Shown here: piece after piece, positions 1,456 to 12,597 of the stretch
Position numbering within the stretch: position 1 is the stretch's first letter
Layout: every line of letters starts with the position of its first letter
Assembly: GCA_025201365.1 (NCBI GenBank)
Contig: JAIXMF010000256.1
Coordinates: 1 to 20,137, forward strand
Length of the DNA stretch: 20,137 bases
Direction: 5' to 3'
Origin: Syncephalis plumigaleata
Taxonomy: Eukaryota; Zoopagomycota; Zoopagomycetes; Zoopagales; Piptocephalidaceae
Notes under the pieces: model-generated
What the model was told of the DNA's origin: nothing
What the model saw: only the letters and a program-made list of their open reading frames with translations
Database searches by the model: none
Made by a program: the position numbers and the translations under genes

Positions 1456-3925
1456 CTATCTTTGTTGAACGCTCATTGCTAAGTAACGAGCCGACTTTTG
1501 TAGTTTATCCATCGCATAGGCTATCTGAGTAGAAATCTCTAGTGTATGTTTGTTGTTGTTTCCATTTCCAACTAGATATGATTTGCTAGAATATTAGTAA
1601 ATGTTGTAATAAGAAAGAAATAAAGTAGCACTACTTACAGTGGCCTGCATCTTCATCGATCATCATAACAACTGTAGACGGATCAGTATCCTGCCTAGAG
1701 TTTTTAGCATTGATAGCACGCATCTTGGCTACCCATTTAGATGGATCTATAGCAATAGCAATAGTAATAATAGTCATGTCAGTTCACCTATTACATTATA
1801 TCAATCGACCATTACTTACCCCAGTAGGGTACGCGTGGATCGTGGATTCCTGCAATAACAAGGATATTCGGATACTTCACGTCCACCTTTAGATTGTCAT
1901 AAGGCGAGTATGACTTGATGGCATCATATGCGCTACGGTCATTTAGCGGCGTTCCCCACTCGTAATTGTCATCGTCGGCATTTATATTCTTCGGATCCAT
2001 CATAGTGTCTAAAACATTCAAAAATGGCACTATACTCATTCATATACAACGCTCGTTAGGAATATAATACCAGGTAACTTCATGTACGATTAATACTTAC
2101 CATCTAGAATGGCCACTTTCGCGATATCTGGTCGCTCGTTAATGACAGCGCCGACCATCATGCCACCGGCACTACTACCACTAATGGCCAATAACTCGTG
2201 GCGAGTGTACTTGAGGGAGACGAGCGCGTCGGCAGCTTGGATAAAGTCATTGAACGTATTCTTCTTATTTAAACGCATACCCTCGGATCGCCATGTCGGT
2301 CCTTGTTCATTACCGCCACGTACGTGAGCAATCGCATACACGAATCCTTGATCAAGTAGTGGAATAGTACTCGAAGAGAATCCAACCGGATACGCTTGAC
2401 CATAGGCGCCATAACCAGTGAGCCATGCGAAATTAGTACCATCTCCCTTCATTAAGCTCTTTTTATAGGCAATGGTGACAGGAACCGGTGTCACCGTTCT
2501 ATATCGTCTTGCTATACCGCCCGCCATGATAACCTTCGTAGCATAGTCCTCCTCTTTGTACTGAGGAAGTGGACTTAGGTACGAAGTTACTGGGATCTTT
2601 GTCTTCATAGGGTAAGTATAAAGTGTTGGTGGTTTAACCACGGTGGAGTACGTGAATTGTAGAACGTCACTTTCATATGTCCATTGGAACGGAAGAGTGA
2701 CGGCGTAGGAATCACCCGAAAGATTAATGACATGTGGTGCGGTATTAGGTAGTAGTCTTCCATTATTGAGATCGTACACATTGATCTTTGGAGTCAGGGT
2801 CGCTGACTCAATTGTTACAAAATGATTTTGGAATACAATAAATTTCATATAATAAAAACCCACACCGTTTAACACTTGTCCGCATGCTTGAAATTGCCTA
2901 GTCCGCTTGTCGAAATCGCAAGCATAATACACGTTATACTCTCGTCCCCTCGCTTCAAGCGACATAGCGAATAGAAACTGACGACCTAAATGATGCACCG
3001 CTGATATTTGTCCTTGCATCGGTGGAGTTATCGCGGCTAGAGTATTCGCACTATCCGTAGTGATATCCAAGTAGCGCGTATTGCTAGCGGTGGCTGTATA
3101 CTCGGTTATAAACAAATATTGCCTGCTACTCGCTACACTCATTTCATATGTGTATACATCTCCGCTCTTGGTGTAGATTTGTTGAAACTTTGTTACCGGA
3201 TCACCAACGGTATATCGTGCCCTACCATTGTCAACGGCATCCTTATCTATAGTGGTGTAAAAAATGCTTCTTCCGGTGCCGCTCCATTCGATTGACATGC
3301 CAACATTACGGATCTCGTATGGTAGCAAATTGCTGGATTTCGGATCCTTAAAGTACAAAGTGTGTCGCTCATCGCCCTTGGCATCTATAGTAAAGGCAAT
3401 TAACGTTCCCTGTATATTTGCTTTAATTTCTCTTATTGCTCCGGCTTTAGTACCGAGCGCATTAACGTCAAGTATCATTTCTTCCGCGGCATTGGGTACA
3501 CTAGTGGATCGTCTATAATAGATGGAATATGGCTTGTCAGCCACCTTTCGAGTATAGTATGTATAGCTGCCATATTGCCATTTATCCGTTATTAGATCAC
3601 GCGATAATGCAGATTTTCGCTTGAATATATTGTCTCGAAGTGATCGACTGCTCTCGAGCACTTGTTGCGAGTAGGACGCTTCATTTCTTAAAAATTGTTG
3701 AACGTCATTGCTTTTGAGGCCATCATCCTTTATCCATTGATATGGATCATTGATTATATCGTTATAATATTTATGCTGGAATGGTTTCGTCCTTGCCACC
3801 GGAACCTGCGGTATTCCCTGTGTAGTGGATTTAAGTGATGCCTCTAACGATGAGTCCCCACCAGAAATAAATGAGGGCAGGAATGCTAACCCTAGTAGAA
3901 TGGTAGCGGATCGACAACCAAGCAT
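1456..3925 (-). CDS. Oligopeptidase B-like serine peptidase (S9A family), signal-peptide bearing
   Basis: Four exons join to 2259 bp (752 residues): 3925-2101, 2029-1820, 1746-1639, 1571-1456. Introns of 71, 73 and 67 bp have GTAAGT donors and phase-1 junctions, and branch sites include CCTAAC and TACTAAT. The N-terminus (MLGCRSATILLGLAFLPSF) looks like a signal peptide. A beta-propeller of roughly residues 80-470 precedes an alpha/beta-hydrolase domain. The catalytic triad is visible: Ser585 in GSSAGG, Asp672 in IHDPRVPYW, and His714 in AGHFGNG, the last formed only after exon 3 joins exon 4. AHVRGGNEQG, NKKNTFNDF and KSYSPYDN are typical of oligopeptidase B, which cleaves after Arg or Lys in peptides; prolyl oligopeptidase usually has GGSNGG at the nucleophile. 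Known oligopeptidase B enzymes are usually cytosolic and about 690-720 residues long, so secretion would be atypical. Upstream, TATTTAAA near 4022-4029 on the minus strand could serve as a TATA element. Confidence 0.92.
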
Positions 3926-4225
3926 ATTCGTTAAATGAGAAGAACGAGAACTCTATGGCGTATTGCGAAGAAAATGAGGAAAATTGATAACTAAATTGCG
4001 AAGCATATAAAATACTGGTGTTTTAAATAGGTGCTATCGAGGAGTCGCTCTGCTTGAAGTCCATGTTCCGCCGACCAAATGAGGATAAAACGTTGTTATA
4101 ATGGGACCGAGTTTCAACACGATTCTGAATAGCAATGCCAAAAGCGGTATCAATCAGCAAGAATGGAAATACCATATTGGTATAGTAGCATCAATAGGCC
4201 ACTGCTTAGACCTCTAATAATATGG
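3926..4225. other. 5' flank of the peptidase gene
   Basis: AT-rich promoter-like DNA upstream of the minus-strand peptidase. A TATA-like TATTTAAA on the minus strand at about 4022-4029 lies about 100 bases before the ATG. No open frame or RNA gene is evident. Confidence 0.4.
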
Positions 4226-7510: not shown

Positions 7511-8200
7511 TTAGAGTTTACTAATAAGACGTGTGGCAGATGACGATGCTTGCCTGGATGAATGAGATACGTTGAGATGATGTCGTTGCTGGTACTCCTC
7601 GGCACCAGGTACCGTGGATCGGTCAACCTCTTCGTCACGATGCCAATCGGGCGGGCAATGATTCTGGCTGATACGCTGCACATCGGTGGTAATGCGACCG
7701 AATTCATCGGGTGCCAAGCGAACATCGCGTACCACGGCATTGCTGGACACGGTCGATGTTGGAATGCGTACCTGTTCATCGTCATTAGTGTGTTCCGGGT
7801 CCTTTTCTAATGGAGGCAAGACATATCCCGTGGCACCAGTTGTGGCACCAGTTGTAGCAGTTGTAGCTTTAGGTGAACCTGCCAACTGACCGGGTGATGT
7901 GGCGGATGGCGACGATTGATGTGTTGCACCGGTTGTGTCCGTGCCAGTCTCAACGTAGGCATCTGGCCGTACTGACTCGCTTGGTAGATTGGCCGAATGG
8001 ACAGCTAGTGCTGCATTATCGTGAAGCACCAGCGAATGATCGAGTTGTGCCATGCTCGGTACAAATGCCGGTGCAGATGGTGTTGCCGTGTTCGTTTCCG
8101 TGGTAATTGAGGCACGACGATCTCGACGTCTTGATGGACTACGGGCAGACCTGCCGTTCATGTTGTTGGCTGATGAGCGCGTCGTATAATAGTTAGGCAT
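7511..8200 (-). CDS. Hypothetical disordered Ser/Thr/Ala-rich protein
   Basis: A 229-residue single-exon reading frame that I do not recognise. An in-frame TAA lies about 20 bases before the ATG, so the start at 8200 is well placed. The sequence is low in hydrophobic residues and probably disordered. It has a basic N-terminal stretch (SARSPSRRRDRRAS) that includes an RRAS site suited to basophilic kinases, then a Thr/Ala/Gly-rich repeat-like segment (TTATTGATTGATG, residues about 112-124), an acidic patch (EKDPEHTNDDEQ) and a His/Gln/Ser-rich tail. There are no transmembrane segments or catalytic motifs. Local GC content is higher than in the flanks, and a probable 5' UTR intron lies at 8251-8323, both supporting a real gene. 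It could be a regulatory or RNA-binding protein, but nothing proves that. Confidence 0.6.
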   Translation of the reverse strand: MPNYYTTRSSANNMNGRSARSPSRRRDRRASITTETNTATPSAPAFVPSMAQLDHSLVLHDNAALAVHSANLPSESVRPDAYVETGTDTTGATHQSSPSATSPGQLAGSPKATTATTGATTGATGYVLPPLEKDPEHTNDDEQVRIPTSTVSSNAVVRDVRLAPDEFGRITTDVQRISQNHCPPDWHRDEEVDRSTVPGAEEYQQRHHLNVSHSSRQASSSATRLISKL

Positions 8201-8250
8201 GATGATATCGATGATAGATTATATTGATGATGATGATGATGGGGATGATG

Positions 8251-8323: not shown

Positions 8324-9307
8324 TATTGGCAATACTAGCGAGGAATATGATAGTAAGAATGTGGTTGAAGAGCGTTGTAGAACAACGTGTATAATGGTGC
8401 TAGTATTCCCTTTTGCATTCGAGTGCTGTTGCTGTTGTAATGAGTGTAGTCTTGCTTGCCTGCTCGTTGCTCGGTTGCAGAGAACAGTTGTGAGAAAGAA
8501 TGCCTGAATCAAGTATACGCCAGTGAATGAGCAGACTGGTCGATATGGAAAAAGAAGAAGAATAGGAAAAGGATAGCTGACTAGTACGAGCAAACAAGGA
8601 GCGACTATAACCTACTTATCAACTATCAACAAGAAGACTCGATCTATTTAAGACACGATTCAAGACATGTGCCTTCCTTTGTACTAGACATTCTGTATTC
8701 CCACATCAAGCATGGAAGAACAGGAAAAAAAGGAGGAGAATACGACACTTTCGTTCAGTGTAGACATGCACCGCACCACGCACACACATGCGTAAATGAT
8801 ACATCCAACTGCCGTCGTCCATTCTAGAAAGACGACTTGTACCATCAGCAGGGGTACTTTTTGTCTGCTTGTCCTTCTACCTACCTACTCCGCTTGCATC
8901 CTTGCCTTACTTGTTTCTTTCCTCTCTTCCTCTATTCTTAGTAACACACTATTATGATTCGTGAATGATATTGTGAATGGGGCCACACGCCATTCCCCAA
9001 CCCATTTGCATCATCATTATATCAAATGATATAATGGTAACGACGTGCTCTAGCTGGTAGTACTTGTACGCATTGACCACCATAATGGGATAGCCATTTC
9101 TATCATCATTATCCGTAATAAAAGGAATAACCCACAGCTTTATTGATCAACTAGTAGACAGGAATGGTTGTTTTGCAGTTAAAGTTTACTAGGCAACAAG
9201 ACACGTCCGTGTGGCGATGCCATAATCAGCTAGTTAACAAAAAGTCAAGTGCTACACGGCTGCTCATTATATCGTGTATAGACTAGTGGACAGATGATCG
9301 CCTAACA
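8324..9307. other. Upstream region of the hypothetical gene; no further gene
   Basis: The minus-strand part from 8324 to about 8600 is probably 5' UTR, with pyrimidine-rich tracts, after a TTAAATA TATA-like site at about 8642-8648. Minus-strand frames at 8294-8593 and 8400-8597 are rich in Leu, Ser and Phe because of this bias and are not called as genes. From 8650 to 9307 nothing is seen apart from a perfect palindrome at 9015-9036. Confidence 0.4.
9015..9036. repeat. Short perfect inverted repeat
   Basis: CATTATATCA and TGATATAATG are exact 10-base arms separated by AA. It could be a dimeric binding site or a chance feature of AT-rich DNA; it is too weak for a terminator in a fungus. Confidence 0.5.
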
Positions 9308-9344
9308 TACAAGCTTTTTCCATCCAATTTGCGCAGTTAGCCTT
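9308..9344 (+). repeat. Left terminal inverted repeat of copy 3
   Basis: Begins TACAAGC and ends near GTTAGCCTTT. Its core is exactly complementary to the right end of the same element, and the last ten bases recur in copy 2. Confidence 0.75.
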
Positions 9345-9420
9345 TTGTTTTTACGAATAAATAATAGTTATGATAGCACTTACAAGTATCTTTTGGGGTG
9401 TGGTCGCGATAACGCCACGG

Positions 9421-9618
9421 TTAATTTGTTTTTTGTTGTTTGGACCCCCGTTGTCCTTGTCCTTCTTTCTTTGAACGCTTAGAAGGAACGGCACCTCGTT
9501 GGAATTGGGTTGGAATACGACCATCAGCGCGATGACTGCGAATAATCTGAATGAAGTTCAGACATGCTGCCATATCCCGATTCCATAAATGATAATCAAT
9601 AGTTACTTGTAAGTACAT
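9421..9618 (-). pseudogene. Fanzor (eukaryotic TnpB-like) C-terminal remnant
   Basis: The 65-codon frame contains HLWNRDMAACLNF, then IIRSHRADGRIPTQFQRG and a basic tail (PSKRSKKEGQGQRG). The NRDxxAxxN pattern is the RuvC-III motif at the end of TnpB and Fanzor proteins, whose Asp (residue 15 here) is the third catalytic acid; fungal members commonly continue with a G-x-x-P-x-x-F-x-R segment and a basic tail, recalled from family knowledge. RuvC-I and RuvC-II and the zinc-finger cysteines are absent: the frame opens only about 14 residues before the Asp, and the minus-strand DNA up to 9850 shows no other Fanzor motif. It therefore cannot encode a nuclease on its own. The fragment sits inside inverted repeats at 9308 and 9856. 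Family membership rests on about 30 residues. Confidence 0.65.
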
Positions 9619-9817
9619 GACATGGCAATATCCAACTATACTAGTACACTTGTATCATCTATCTTATAGAATTGATGATGATAGTTATCGCTATCAATAA
9701 ATGATCCATTACTGAATACTGAATTGTTATTATTATCATGCTGTGTCAATAGGCATTTCTATGGTGATAATAGTGTTAACTATTGTCCAAATCTTTTTAT
9801 TATTAAACTGCAAACGT

Positions 9818-9856
9818 TAAAGGATAAATGCGCAAATTGGATGGAAAAGCACTGTA
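9818..9856 (-). repeat. Right terminal inverted repeat of copy 3
   Basis: Read on the minus strand it begins TACAGTGCTTTTCC and continues into TTTATCCTTTAAC, pairing with 9308-9344 with a few mismatches in the inner part. Confidence 0.75.
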
Positions 9857-10668
9857 ATAGAGAATGCGTTGAATTTTAATCAACAGGATAAATTATGATT
9901 ATAAACTTGTATTTGTTGTTGTTGTCGATGCTAATGATGAATAAATAAAAGCATAGATGATTGTTCGCTGGCTACGTGCAATAATAATAATAATAAATAG
10001 CGTCAGAAATTAGACATTCGACACGGTTATCACTGAGCCAAGAAATTTTGTACACTCTTGACCTTCGCCAGTGATGACACCTCCGTCCGCCCGTCTAATG
10101 TTATCATCACGCGCTACTGTTATAGAATTACGTATGACTAAATGCAGTATGCTGCCTCGCATAGTCAACACATGGGACCTAGATTCTCTCTCGGTACCCC
10201 ACCTTGGATATTGAGTGACTGTGCTCGATCTAATTGAGGAAATAGAGGAATATCTATAGCTTCCGCATAAAGCATCTACGTAATTAACGATTCTAGTATA
10301 TTGCTCTATTCGAATCTCATCGATTTACATCTATTTAGTAACGATGCAGCTCTACGCTGTAATTATAATAATAATAAAAAAGTAGTATTACGCTAATAAC
10401 ATTGTGGTTTATTTGTTTTGTTTTGATAAAGACGGCATATGCCAACGGTTTGACAAGAAAAATAACATCAACACCATCAATCCATCGCGACGAAAACCAT
10501 AACAATCCTTGACGCTCACGTCCTACGTTCACGCCATTAACGCTTTTCTATTTATTCTACTTTACAATTTATCTACCCCCCTCTCTTCTCTTACTTTGCT
10601 AGTGCAAAGAAATTTATCTTCACTAAGAAGTCAGTTCTCGATTTGCTTATTCAACAGTTATCATTAGG
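9857..10668. other. Intergenic region and promoter of the fungalysin gene
   Basis: Nothing coding is seen. The region has short AAT/ATT runs (9980-9997 and 10363-10378) and a C/T-rich tract at about 10573-10600 that ends 70-90 bases before the ATG, as is common at fungal transcription starts. A less AT-rich island at about 10020-10210 shows no frame or tRNA fold that I can defend. Confidence 0.4.
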
Positions 10669-12597
10669 ATGATGATGATGAACACTCGTCTTGTCGTCGC
10701 GGCGCTAGTCATGATTAGTGCTGCATCCGTAGTGTTGGCGGAACGTGTCAAGGTTGATTTGATTAATCCGGATCCAGTTCCTAAATTCGAGGTTGTTTCC
10801 CGTTCGTCGGCACTCCGTCAACAAAGTCGTAACTTCGCTGCAAATGGCAAGCCAGAGGATGTCGCCATAGCATTCGCTCGACAACATCTAAAGGTCAATA
10901 ATGGCGACTACGTTGTTAAAGACGCTTACTCAAGCAAGTCAACTGGTGTCATCCACGTATACCTTAAACAGGTATTCCAAGGTGTCGAGATAGCCAACGG
11001 TGACATTTCCGTCAATGTCGATGCTAAAGGCACGATCATTGCCTATGGCGATAACTTCTACCGTAATGCCGACGCATCCAAGCGCAAACTATGGGCCGGT
11101 CAATCCTCGTCACGTTTCGTCGAACCGAACAAAGCATTCGTGTCGCTAGCCAATCATATCGGCAGGCCAATTGAAGCCTCCAAGATTACCGTGTCATCGC
11201 GTACTAGTCTAGTTGGTAACAAGCCAGAATACGTGCTATCCGGTATTCCTTACGCAAAGGACGAGGTTATTGCCAAGCAGTCCTATATCCAAACAAGTGA
11301 AGGTGCTCTGGAGGCCACCTGGGAATTCTTCATCGATCTCGGTGAAAACTATTTCAATGCACATGTGCCAGCCGATGGTGGAAAACTTATCTCCATCAAC
11401 GATTGGATTTCCGATGCCAGCTATAATGTGGTCAATTTCGAAGAATCCGACATTGGAACAGGTGGTCGTGTCGTATTAACCGATCCTGCCAACACTAAGG
11501 CATCTCCCAGGGGATGGCACGACTTTAATGGTGCCAATACGCGTACCACTCTTGGTAACAATGTCGAAGCGATTGCTCCAGCCAATGCCCGACAAAGGAC
11601 TACAGCCACACAGCCGATCTCTGCCAATCTGAAATTCGACTATCCTGTTGACCTTACCAAGGACCCAAGCACCTATCGTGAGGCTGCTGTTACCAACTTG
11701 TTCTACATGAACAACATCATGCACGATGTATTCTATCAGTATGGTTTCGACGAAGCATCCGGCAACTTCCAGAACGACAACTACGGAAAAGGCGGTGTCG
11801 GTGGTGATCATGTCCTAGCTAATGCGCAAGATCCATCCGGCTACAATAACGCCAACTTCTACACACCACCCGATGGTCAGCGTCCACGCATGCGCATGTA
11901 CACATGGACAGTTACAAATCCACAACGCGATGGTGATTTCGAGAACGATATCATCGCTCACGAATACACACACGGTATCTCTACCCGTTTGACCGGTGGG
12001 CCGGCCAACTCCAATTGTTTGGGTTCCGGTGAGGCAGGCGGTATGGGTGAAGGCTGGGGCGACTTTGTCGGTATGTGGCTACGTCTCAAGAAGGGTGATA
12101 ATCACGACAAGGCCATAACACTGGGCGATTACGTGAACACCAAGGGTATTCGCCGCTATCCATATAGCACTGATATGAAGGTGAATCCAACCACTTACGG
12201 CTTAGTGTACACCAACGGATGGACTGAAGTTCATTCCATTGGTGAAATCTGGGCCAATATGCTATATCAAATGTACTGGAACTTGGTCGACAAACTAGGA
12301 TATAACGAGGACAAATACTCGGTTGATCTTACCAAGGGTAATACGCTAGCTGCTAAATTGGTCATTGACGGTATGAAATTGCAACCATGTCGCCCGACAT
12401 TCATTTCTGCTCGTGACGCCATTCTTCAAGCCGAACAACAGAATACGGGTGGCAAGCACAAGTGCGAGATCTGGGCTGCTTTCGCTAAGCGCGGTCTCGG
12501 TGCGAAGGCTGAAACTAACGGCAGTTCAAAGGTCACTGAAGACTTTTCACTTCCTGCCGAATGCGGCGGAACAGCCACACCAAGTCCAGGAGAGTAG
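10669..12597 (+). CDS. Fungalysin, secreted zinc metallopeptidase (family M36)
   Basis: A 642-residue intact, intronless preproenzyme. Residues 1-24 form a signal peptide (LVVAALVMISAASVVLA). Residues about 65-130 fit the fungalysin/thermolysin propeptide (FTP) domain, and the catalytic M36 domain runs from about 265 to 625. The zinc site is complete: His431, Glu432 and His435 in HEYTHG, and Glu461 in GMGEGWGDF, 30 residues after the first His as in characterised fungalysins. The length fits the family (about 600-640). The enzyme is made as an inactive precursor, and after removal of the propeptide it degrades extracellular proteins such as elastin, keratin or collagen in animal-associated fungi. 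Four ATG codons in a row at 10669-10680 leave the exact start uncertain by three residues. The gene is flanked by intergenic DNA and is not clustered with another M36 gene here. Confidence 0.97.
   Translation: MMMMNTRLVVAALVMISAASVVLAERVKVDLINPDPVPKFEVVSRSSALRQQSRNFAANGKPEDVAIAFARQHLKVNNGDYVVKDAYSSKSTGVIHVYLKQVFQGVEIANGDISVNVDAKGTIIAYGDNFYRNADASKRKLWAGQSSSRFVEPNKAFVSLANHIGRPIEASKITVSSRTSLVGNKPEYVLSGIPYAKDEVIAKQSYIQTSEGALEATWEFFIDLGENYFNAHVPADGGKLISINDWISDASYNVVNFEESDIGTGGRVVLTDPANTKASPRGWHDFNGANTRTTLGNNVEAIAPANARQRTTATQPISANLKFDYPVDLTKDPSTYREAAVTNLFYMNNIMHDVFYQYGFDEASGNFQNDNYGKGGVGGDHVLANAQDPSGYNNANFYTPPDGQRPRMRMYTWTVTNPQRDGDFENDIIAHEYTHGISTRLTGGPANSNCLGSGEAGGMGEGWGDFVGMWLRLKKGDNHDKAITLGDYVNTKGIRRYPYSTDMKVNPTTYGLVYTNGWTEVHSIGEIWANMLYQMYWNLVDKLGYNEDKYSVDLTKGNTLAAKLVIDGMKLQPCRPTFISARDAILQAEQQNTGGKHKCEIWAAFAKRGLGAKAETNGSSKVTEDFSLPAECGGTATPSPGE

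Follow-up and report, generated by a model that had tools for sequence, protein, structure and literature searches.

A ghost element family derived from a Fanzor1 transposon in Syncephalis plumigaleata retains the last Fanzor codons and a putative guide RNA hairpin

The 65-codon open reading frame found at 9421..9618 of the window (the whole 20,137-bp stretch analysed, which is contig C175 of the 32.6-Mb, 383-contig Syncephalis plumigaleata assembly, the genome searched throughout) lies within a 545-bp ghost element, one member of a large family whose homology to Fanzor genes, structure and copy number we describe here. In our assessment, this element is probably a non-autonomous derivative of a Fanzor1-bearing, TA-inserting (Tc1/mariner-like) transposon with terminal inverted repeats (TIRs), the guide of which is used in trans: this would entail the production of an omegaRNA by the ghosts and its use in trans by Fanzor.

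The element occupies 9310..9854 with its Fanzor sense on the minus strand, belongs to the 540-bp class of the family and is delimited by TIRs and by TA target-site duplications at 9308..9309 (Fanzor-downstream side) and 9855..9856 (Fanzor-upstream side), which confirms the small inverted-repeat element proposed in the initial annotation. The 3' TIR spans 9310..9366 (outer sequence CAAGCT) and the 5' TIR 9798..9854 (outer sequence CAGTGC), with the inverted-repeat arms of the element at 9316-9366/9798-9848. Along the minus strand, the 5' TIR with approximately 252 bp comes first, then a short junction and 54 codons closed by a stop, and lastly a hairpin and the 3' TIR. The segment 9603..9854 (minus), whose position in the window is projected from the 540-bp class consensus, matches the first 252 bp of a 4.0-kb full-length Fanzor element (95.6% for the consensus). 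The ORF (minus strand, stop at 9421-9423) contains the Fanzor-derived end of the last exon, from W-N-R-D to the stop, at 9421..9585 (minus), including the RuvC-III Asp codon of W-N-R-D at 9574-9576 (minus); similarity to a second type of full-length Fanzor gene (L071) starts approximately 8 nt upstream of this Fanzor-derived end. Immediately past the stop codon lies an SL1-like hairpin, GTGGCG-TTATCG-CG-a-CCAC (9400..9418, minus). From its position, its hairpin and the published Fz1 architecture, the stretch from the hairpin to the element end (9310..9418, minus) is a putative omegaRNA scaffold, and by analogy with published Fz1 omegaRNAs the 20 nt past the TA (9288..9307, minus) represent the predicted guide. 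Just 5' of the ORF start, at 9615-9644 (minus), is the 30-nt block with the highest conservation in the 540-bp class (diversity 0.015), possibly a promoter or processing signal.

The ORF reads MYLQVTIDYHLWNRDMAACLNFIQIIRSHRADGRIPTQFQRGAVPSKRSKKEGQGQRGSKQQKTN, of which the ATG and first few codons are contributed by the junction and the 5'-derived part rather than by Fanzor coding sequence, and the 54 Fanzor-derived codons run WNRDMAACLNFIQII...QQKTN and then end at the stop. This frame is not a chance occurrence, since all 19 candidates recovered from 5.8 billion proteins match it at E <= 3.1e-8; 16 of the 19 are S. plumigaleata hypothetical proteins. A search of Pfam and NCBIfam with the 65 residues gave no match at E <= 10, and the fragment alone weakly matched Parasitella Fanzor1 (E=0.038) and a Spizellomyces Fanzor (E=1.5) among the solved Fanzors, in both cases near the protein C-terminus. 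The Fanzor identity of the fragment follows from the full-length parent L066, which carries the same WNRDMAACLNFIQII segment in exon 2 of its gene, the window ORF being the end of an L066-type last exon. Exon 1 of L066 matches Parasitella Fanzor1 at E=9.4e-113, the best match among solved structures, and so the assignment of the frame to a Fanzor C-terminus was borne out.

The L066 element (L066 91-4120) is complete at 4030 bp, with both family TIRs and TA flanks, and is the sole full-length copy of which both ends were seen; the genome search for full-length copies with the same termini thus succeeded, and this genome does contain full Fanzor elements, as had been predicted. Its Fanzor1 gene consists of two exons and an intron: exon 1 ends at CHGLLR, just before the segment of Parasitella Fanzor1 that exon 2 matches, and exon 2 searched alone gave E=0.0044. 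By alignment of VDPGRR (RuvC-I DPG), IDEHKTSK (alternative Glu) and WNRD (terminal RD) to the corresponding signatures of solved Fanzors, together with CPAC...CHGLLR/CTHRTC as a C4 zinc finger, L066 carries the full set of Fanzor1 signatures. The window element retains the RuvC-III end alone, with no RuvC-I, no RuvC-II or alternative Glu and no C4 zinc finger, the losses that the initial annotation had recorded. The 1.65 kb 5' of the L066 gene contains no ORF of more than 78 codons, and no transposase ORF was seen in the element. Relatives of exon 1 in the protein database (21 matches) come from S. plumigaleata, Mucor, Rhizopus and Bifiguratus. The second Fanzor type, L071, has a tail that differs from the L066 type, was seen with a TIR at its 3' end and is interrupted by a Tc1-like insertion whose perfect TIRs measure 213 nt. 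A genome search with PF07282 gave 25 places, at some of which the flanks are almost the same, suggesting duplication; 13 fall within open frames of 600 aa or more, and none scores above the Pfam cut-off. Outside the main family, L051-L054 match PF07282 weakly (E 0.03) in frames of 96-125 aa and are possibly another TnpB-like family.

Copies of the ghost are numerous. The 26-mer spanning the ghost junction occurs at 223 genome places with at most three mismatches (reversed control 0) and the TIR core at 1038 (reversed control 1), both counts including duplicated regions, and a search with the window element found at least 39 other copies at 89-96% identity when 40 of 994 candidates were scored. 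Thus, the description of the element as a relic holds in that the nuclease parts are gone, but understates what is in fact a ghost family. Among the loci examined, 72 distinct 3' ends remained after removal of duplicates: 27 belong to the 533-595 bp class, 11 to the 1022-1222 bp class and 14 to the 210-239 bp class, 17 are Fanzor-tailed with a 5' end beyond the loci read and 3 fall outside these four groups. One deletion gave the 540-bp form, composed of approximately the first 252 bp and the last 280 bp of the full-length element, and its consensus is 95% identical to the 3' end of L071 over 280 nt. The 1.1-kb class must have arisen through a second deletion event, since its consensus spans the exon-1 end, the intron and the last exon of the parent; its members keep the last exon and hairpin with the frame broken in 4/4 copies read in frame. 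Both the 540-bp and the 1.1-kb forms retain the hairpin 3' of the Fanzor stop, and the short class (approximately 226 bp) retains just approximately 60 bp of the 3' end. As expected of a ghost, the window element has the inverted repeats of a Fanzor locus from which the gene has been deleted, together with a 3' region shared with the full-length gene and putatively specifying an omegaRNA.

Ghosts of this kind are already described elsewhere, and it is the retained Fanzor codons that are the new twist. In Spizellomyces punctatus, 134 ghost loci were reported against 42 Fz loci; these ghosts lack an Fz ORF and have inverted repeats (IRs), a conserved region of approximately 550 nt and a 3' end like that of an omegaRNA (Saito et al. 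2023, PMC10432273). The Syncephalis ghosts resemble those of Spu-1 in being IR-bounded, in outnumbering the Fanzor loci of their genome, in a 3' end similar to the part of the Fz locus that specifies the omegaRNA and, less certainly, in base preferences just outside the 5' IR. They differ in keeping the last 54 Fanzor codons, mostly in frame, in comprising three size classes and several hairpin variants within one genome, and in the preferred upstream base, which is A (ATA) in Syncephalis and CA in Spu-1, the Syncephalis guide RNA being putative. Going by the cited portion of Bao and Jurka (2013, PMC3627910), the family also resembles the SPu-1/Fanzor1 Mariner-type elements, with TIRs, TA duplications, Fanzor as sole protein and no transposase, and departs from the SPu-1 type in the 4.0-kb length, the intron and the long 5' non-coding part of its parent. 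Our literature search returned no paper on Fanzor in Syncephalis or on S. plumigaleata transposons, and ghost Fanzor elements were found in Saito et al. (PMC10432273) alone. With this family, the formation of numerous ghosts from a Fanzor extends to a further fungal lineage, the Zoopagomycota.

The mechanism that we propose begins with an internal deletion that fused approximately the first 252 bp of a full-length element to approximately its last 280 bp, giving a product that multiplied to more than 200 places beside few full-length Fanzor elements and that kept 54 terminal Fanzor codons with their stop, the hairpin and the 3' TIR. The kept 3' stretch would constitute the omegaRNA scaffold: each ghost copy would be transcribed through its 3' end into approximately 20 nt of flanking DNA, so that its RNA is a guide to that copy's own empty site. 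Fanzor from intact full-length copies may then take up the ghost RNA in trans and cut empty sites bearing an ATA-like TAM, with repair copying the ghost back into the cut site; movement of the ghosts themselves would need a transposase supplied from elsewhere. It is also conceivable, if rather unlikely in our estimate, that the element is a plain MITE or relic, that is, a deletion derivative moved by a transposase, in which the Fanzor tail and the hairpin are passengers without a role in copying or retention. Such a reading draws on the fact that forms without the Fanzor tail and hairpin are common too (14/72 distinct 3' ends) and that even the full-length L066 shows no transposase ORF, but fits less well with the retention of the same 3' stretch by two separate deletions (540 bp and 1.1 kb) and with a design equal to that of the Spizellomyces ghosts. 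For the guide-in-trans reading, the standing question of whether Fanzor preserves its own non-autonomous derivatives in trans becomes directly testable, and a single genome offers many natural hairpin variants of a putative guide scaffold together with one asymmetric flank motif.

This flank motif was analysed using 163 deduplicated ends from 138 loci. TA is present at 70/76 upstream and 82/87 downstream ends, as expected for Tc1/mariner target sites, and is preceded by A at 46/70 upstream versus 20/82 downstream ends (p=3e-7), with A also in excess one base farther out (40/70 upstream versus 28/82 downstream, p=0.005). Comparison of the upstream base with its mirror-image downstream position by size class gave A in 14/25 versus 8/25 for the 533-595 bp forms, 9/11 versus 1/11 for the 1.1-kb forms and 8/11 versus 3/11 for the short forms (one of the 14 short forms yielded no flank). 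The closest characterised relative, Parasitella parasitica Fanzor1 (PDB 9cf0; Xu et al. 2024, PMC11423790), is a complete nuclease, which the window element cannot encode, and according to the cited part of that study its TAM is ATN; the fit of the ATA flank to this motif is an attractive analogy. For SpuFz1, the TAM is CATA, and CA is conserved upstream of SpuFz1 elements (PMC10432273, sections cited). However, the ATA preference may be that of the transposase, since the 226-bp forms without hairpin show the same bias (8/11), and as proof of Fanzor action the ATA flank was rejected for this reason. That these tail-less 210-239-bp forms share both the TA and the ATA flanks speaks for a plain MITE. 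The guide-in-trans reading is further weakened by the window copy itself, in which T precedes the upstream TA in the minus sense, giving TTA instead of the family-typical ATA, and in which the 3' tip is altered (CAAGCT versus CAGGCT or CAGACT in most tabulated ends). Across the family, the two TIR tips differ consistently: most tabulated 5' tips are CAGTGT, and the 3' tips are CAGGCT/CAGACT. In modelled folds of L033 and L086 the 3' tip pairs with an upstream AGGCT, and such pairing could lie beside the guide junction.

Turning to the hairpin, its loop is TTATCG or TATCGT directly past the Fanzor stop codon. With the 210-239-bp class set aside, every 3' end carries this motif (58/58), and 55/58 form five or more consecutive pairs if one bulge is tolerated; L003, L085 and the 540-bp element of L026 do not. 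In the 210-239-bp class the loop motif is present in 2/14 ends and is unpaired both times. Hairpin pairing persists as the sequence changes, which argues against mere passengers in a plain MITE: among 25 distinct arm pairs (2 from short forms), own arms form 4.8 pairs versus 2.5 for swapped arms (0/20000 permutations), and the covariation score of 19 distinct variants is 0.296 versus 0.141 for shuffled ones (0/500). The support from covariation is moderate only, because 2/5 covariation measures are not above shuffles and because sliding the structure by +3 is nearly as good in pairing (59.4% paired) and scores higher in covariation (0.393); it appears to rest on few subfamily changes. In folding of 71 of the 72 records, local hairpin z-scores against shuffles were -1.57 for the 540-bp (n=25), -1.46 for the 587-595-bp (n=2), -2.47 for the full-length (n=17) and -2.40 for the 1.1-kb copies (n=11), -3.22 for ends outside the size classes (n=2) and +0.13 for the short forms (n=14). 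Over the whole putative scaffold, mean z was -0.91 for full-length and -1.16 for 1.1-kb copies, and in the 540-bp class folding was no better than that of shuffles (mean z +0.62). This last result weakens the guide-in-trans reading and is a point in favour of a plain MITE. Published Fz1 omegaRNAs start with a 7-bp SL1 (PMC11423790, part cited), and the SpuFz1 omegaRNA covers the 3' IR and continues into the guide (PMC10432273, sections cited); in position, the hairpin corresponds to the SL1 of these RNAs, and by analogy it may have the corresponding role. Conservation of the 3' non-coding part was rejected as proof of a guide RNA, this part being among the most variable regions of the 540-bp class. 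In L032, L038, L055, L070 and L086 (A-type and 1.1-kb elements), the SL1-like hairpin is succeeded by further hairpins of two types, which may be modular scaffold cassettes within one genome.

Few private changes in the retained tail are unexpected for a guide-only element, and yet this is what was obtained with 25 ghosts, chosen as best DNA matches to the window copy and not as a random draw (L002, L006, L016 and L019 of L001-L030 were dropped as carrying flanks of another copy, and L021 as missed by the 3'-end rule). There are 17 private substitutions over 162 columns of the CDS versus 54 over 210 columns of the 5' part (p=1.8e-4) and 27 over 73 columns of the 3' part (CDS versus 5' and 3' parts together, p=5e-6), and indels occur in 2/25 CDS, 13/25 5' and 12/25 3' parts (windows of 165, 170 and 96 columns). 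The private CDS changes comprise 8 synonymous, 9 non-synonymous and 0 stop changes, where 25% synonymous would be expected (p=0.04). B-type tails with both ends exact number 65, a few of them full-length genes; the standard length was seen in 57, a length 3 shorter in one and an out-of-frame length in 7, so that 58/65 are in frame as judged by length alone. In the 1.1-kb class (11 copies), the dead CDS shows no deficit of private changes relative to the adjacent remnants (25/160 versus 7/165 and 7/94), with indels in 5/11 dead CDS and in 5/11 of the neighbouring window.

These observations would suit a ghost that makes a selected peptide of approximately 65 aa, consisting of the RuvC-III strand and the basic tail of the Fanzor C-terminus, which might for example bind the hairpin or modulate Fanzor. 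We regard this as improbable: a stop at codon 2 precedes an intact tail in 3/25 ghosts (L012, L022 and L029), and the frame is broken in four 1.1-kb copies and in both 587-595-bp forms. Regional rates also differ without coding, the TIR region of the 1.1-kb class being more variable (15/57 private changes) than its dead CDS, and the CDS of 16 full-length A-type genes is hardly less variable than their own 3' UTR (27/183 versus 12/71, no clear difference). The codon pattern of the ghosts, though strong, is thus not a clean test of selection, and the 25 copies, as best matches to the window copy, are no random sample.

Two identical 27-nt coding blocks are common to A-type Fanzor genes and B-type ghosts, and four-gamete violations were found at 239/406 CDS site pairs and at 187/435 site pairs in the 5' part; together, these sequence patterns indicate recombination. 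Since coding blocks are common to ghosts and real genes, Fanzor donors under selection could supply the constraint pattern. As judged from such comparisons, we favour exchange or gene conversion with intact Fanzor 3' ends as the main source of the codon constraint over a working peptide, because 3/25 copies stop at codon 2. Extended to the whole family, ghosts and intact Fanzors may form one recombining pool of 3' ends, with either a selected mini-protein acting alongside the guide RNA or ghost-guided Fanzor breaks driving gene conversion; this we offer tentatively, as a doubtful proposal. Were the gene conversion version true, ghost and gene 3' ends would co-evolve, including reshuffled coding blocks and swapped omegaRNA hairpins. 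At Fanzor tail codons 16-24 (counted from W), ghosts and full-length genes alike show a 27-nt stretch built from few recurring blocks in many combinations.

In the window, the element lies between a 235-aa ORF (7511-8218, minus), which has no Pfam match, and a fungalysin M36 metallopeptidase gene (10627-12597); other Pfam matches are an S-adenosylmethionine synthetase (52-1155), a prolyl oligopeptidase (S9; 2090-3952) and part of a cytochrome P450 (15286-15642). An Rfam scan of 9000-10200 gave a single match, at 22.7 bits versus a gathering score of 60. The region 8500-10700, element included, has a 97% copy at C46:376646-378828, which appears to be a haplotig or a segmental duplication. When an empty site of the window copy was sought among the best 40 of 986 candidates, the other full copy of the region was also found to be filled. 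The flank 8500-9222 is repeated at 98-99% in C29:25773-26494 and C46:101184-101908; both copies end at window position 9222, not at the element, which marks a separate repeat or a duplication edge.

A source of transposase was sought among DDE_3 matches, of which the genome has 31 rows at 26 places: no DDE transposase with the family TIRs was found at the three places read of these 26, which have other termini or none visible. The DDE_3 place beside L071 was rejected as the family transposase, being a nested insertion outside the element proper. At L071/L139 (G000:C1:569700-574400), the Tc1-like insert within the Fanzor gene has an open transposase frame of 380 aa.
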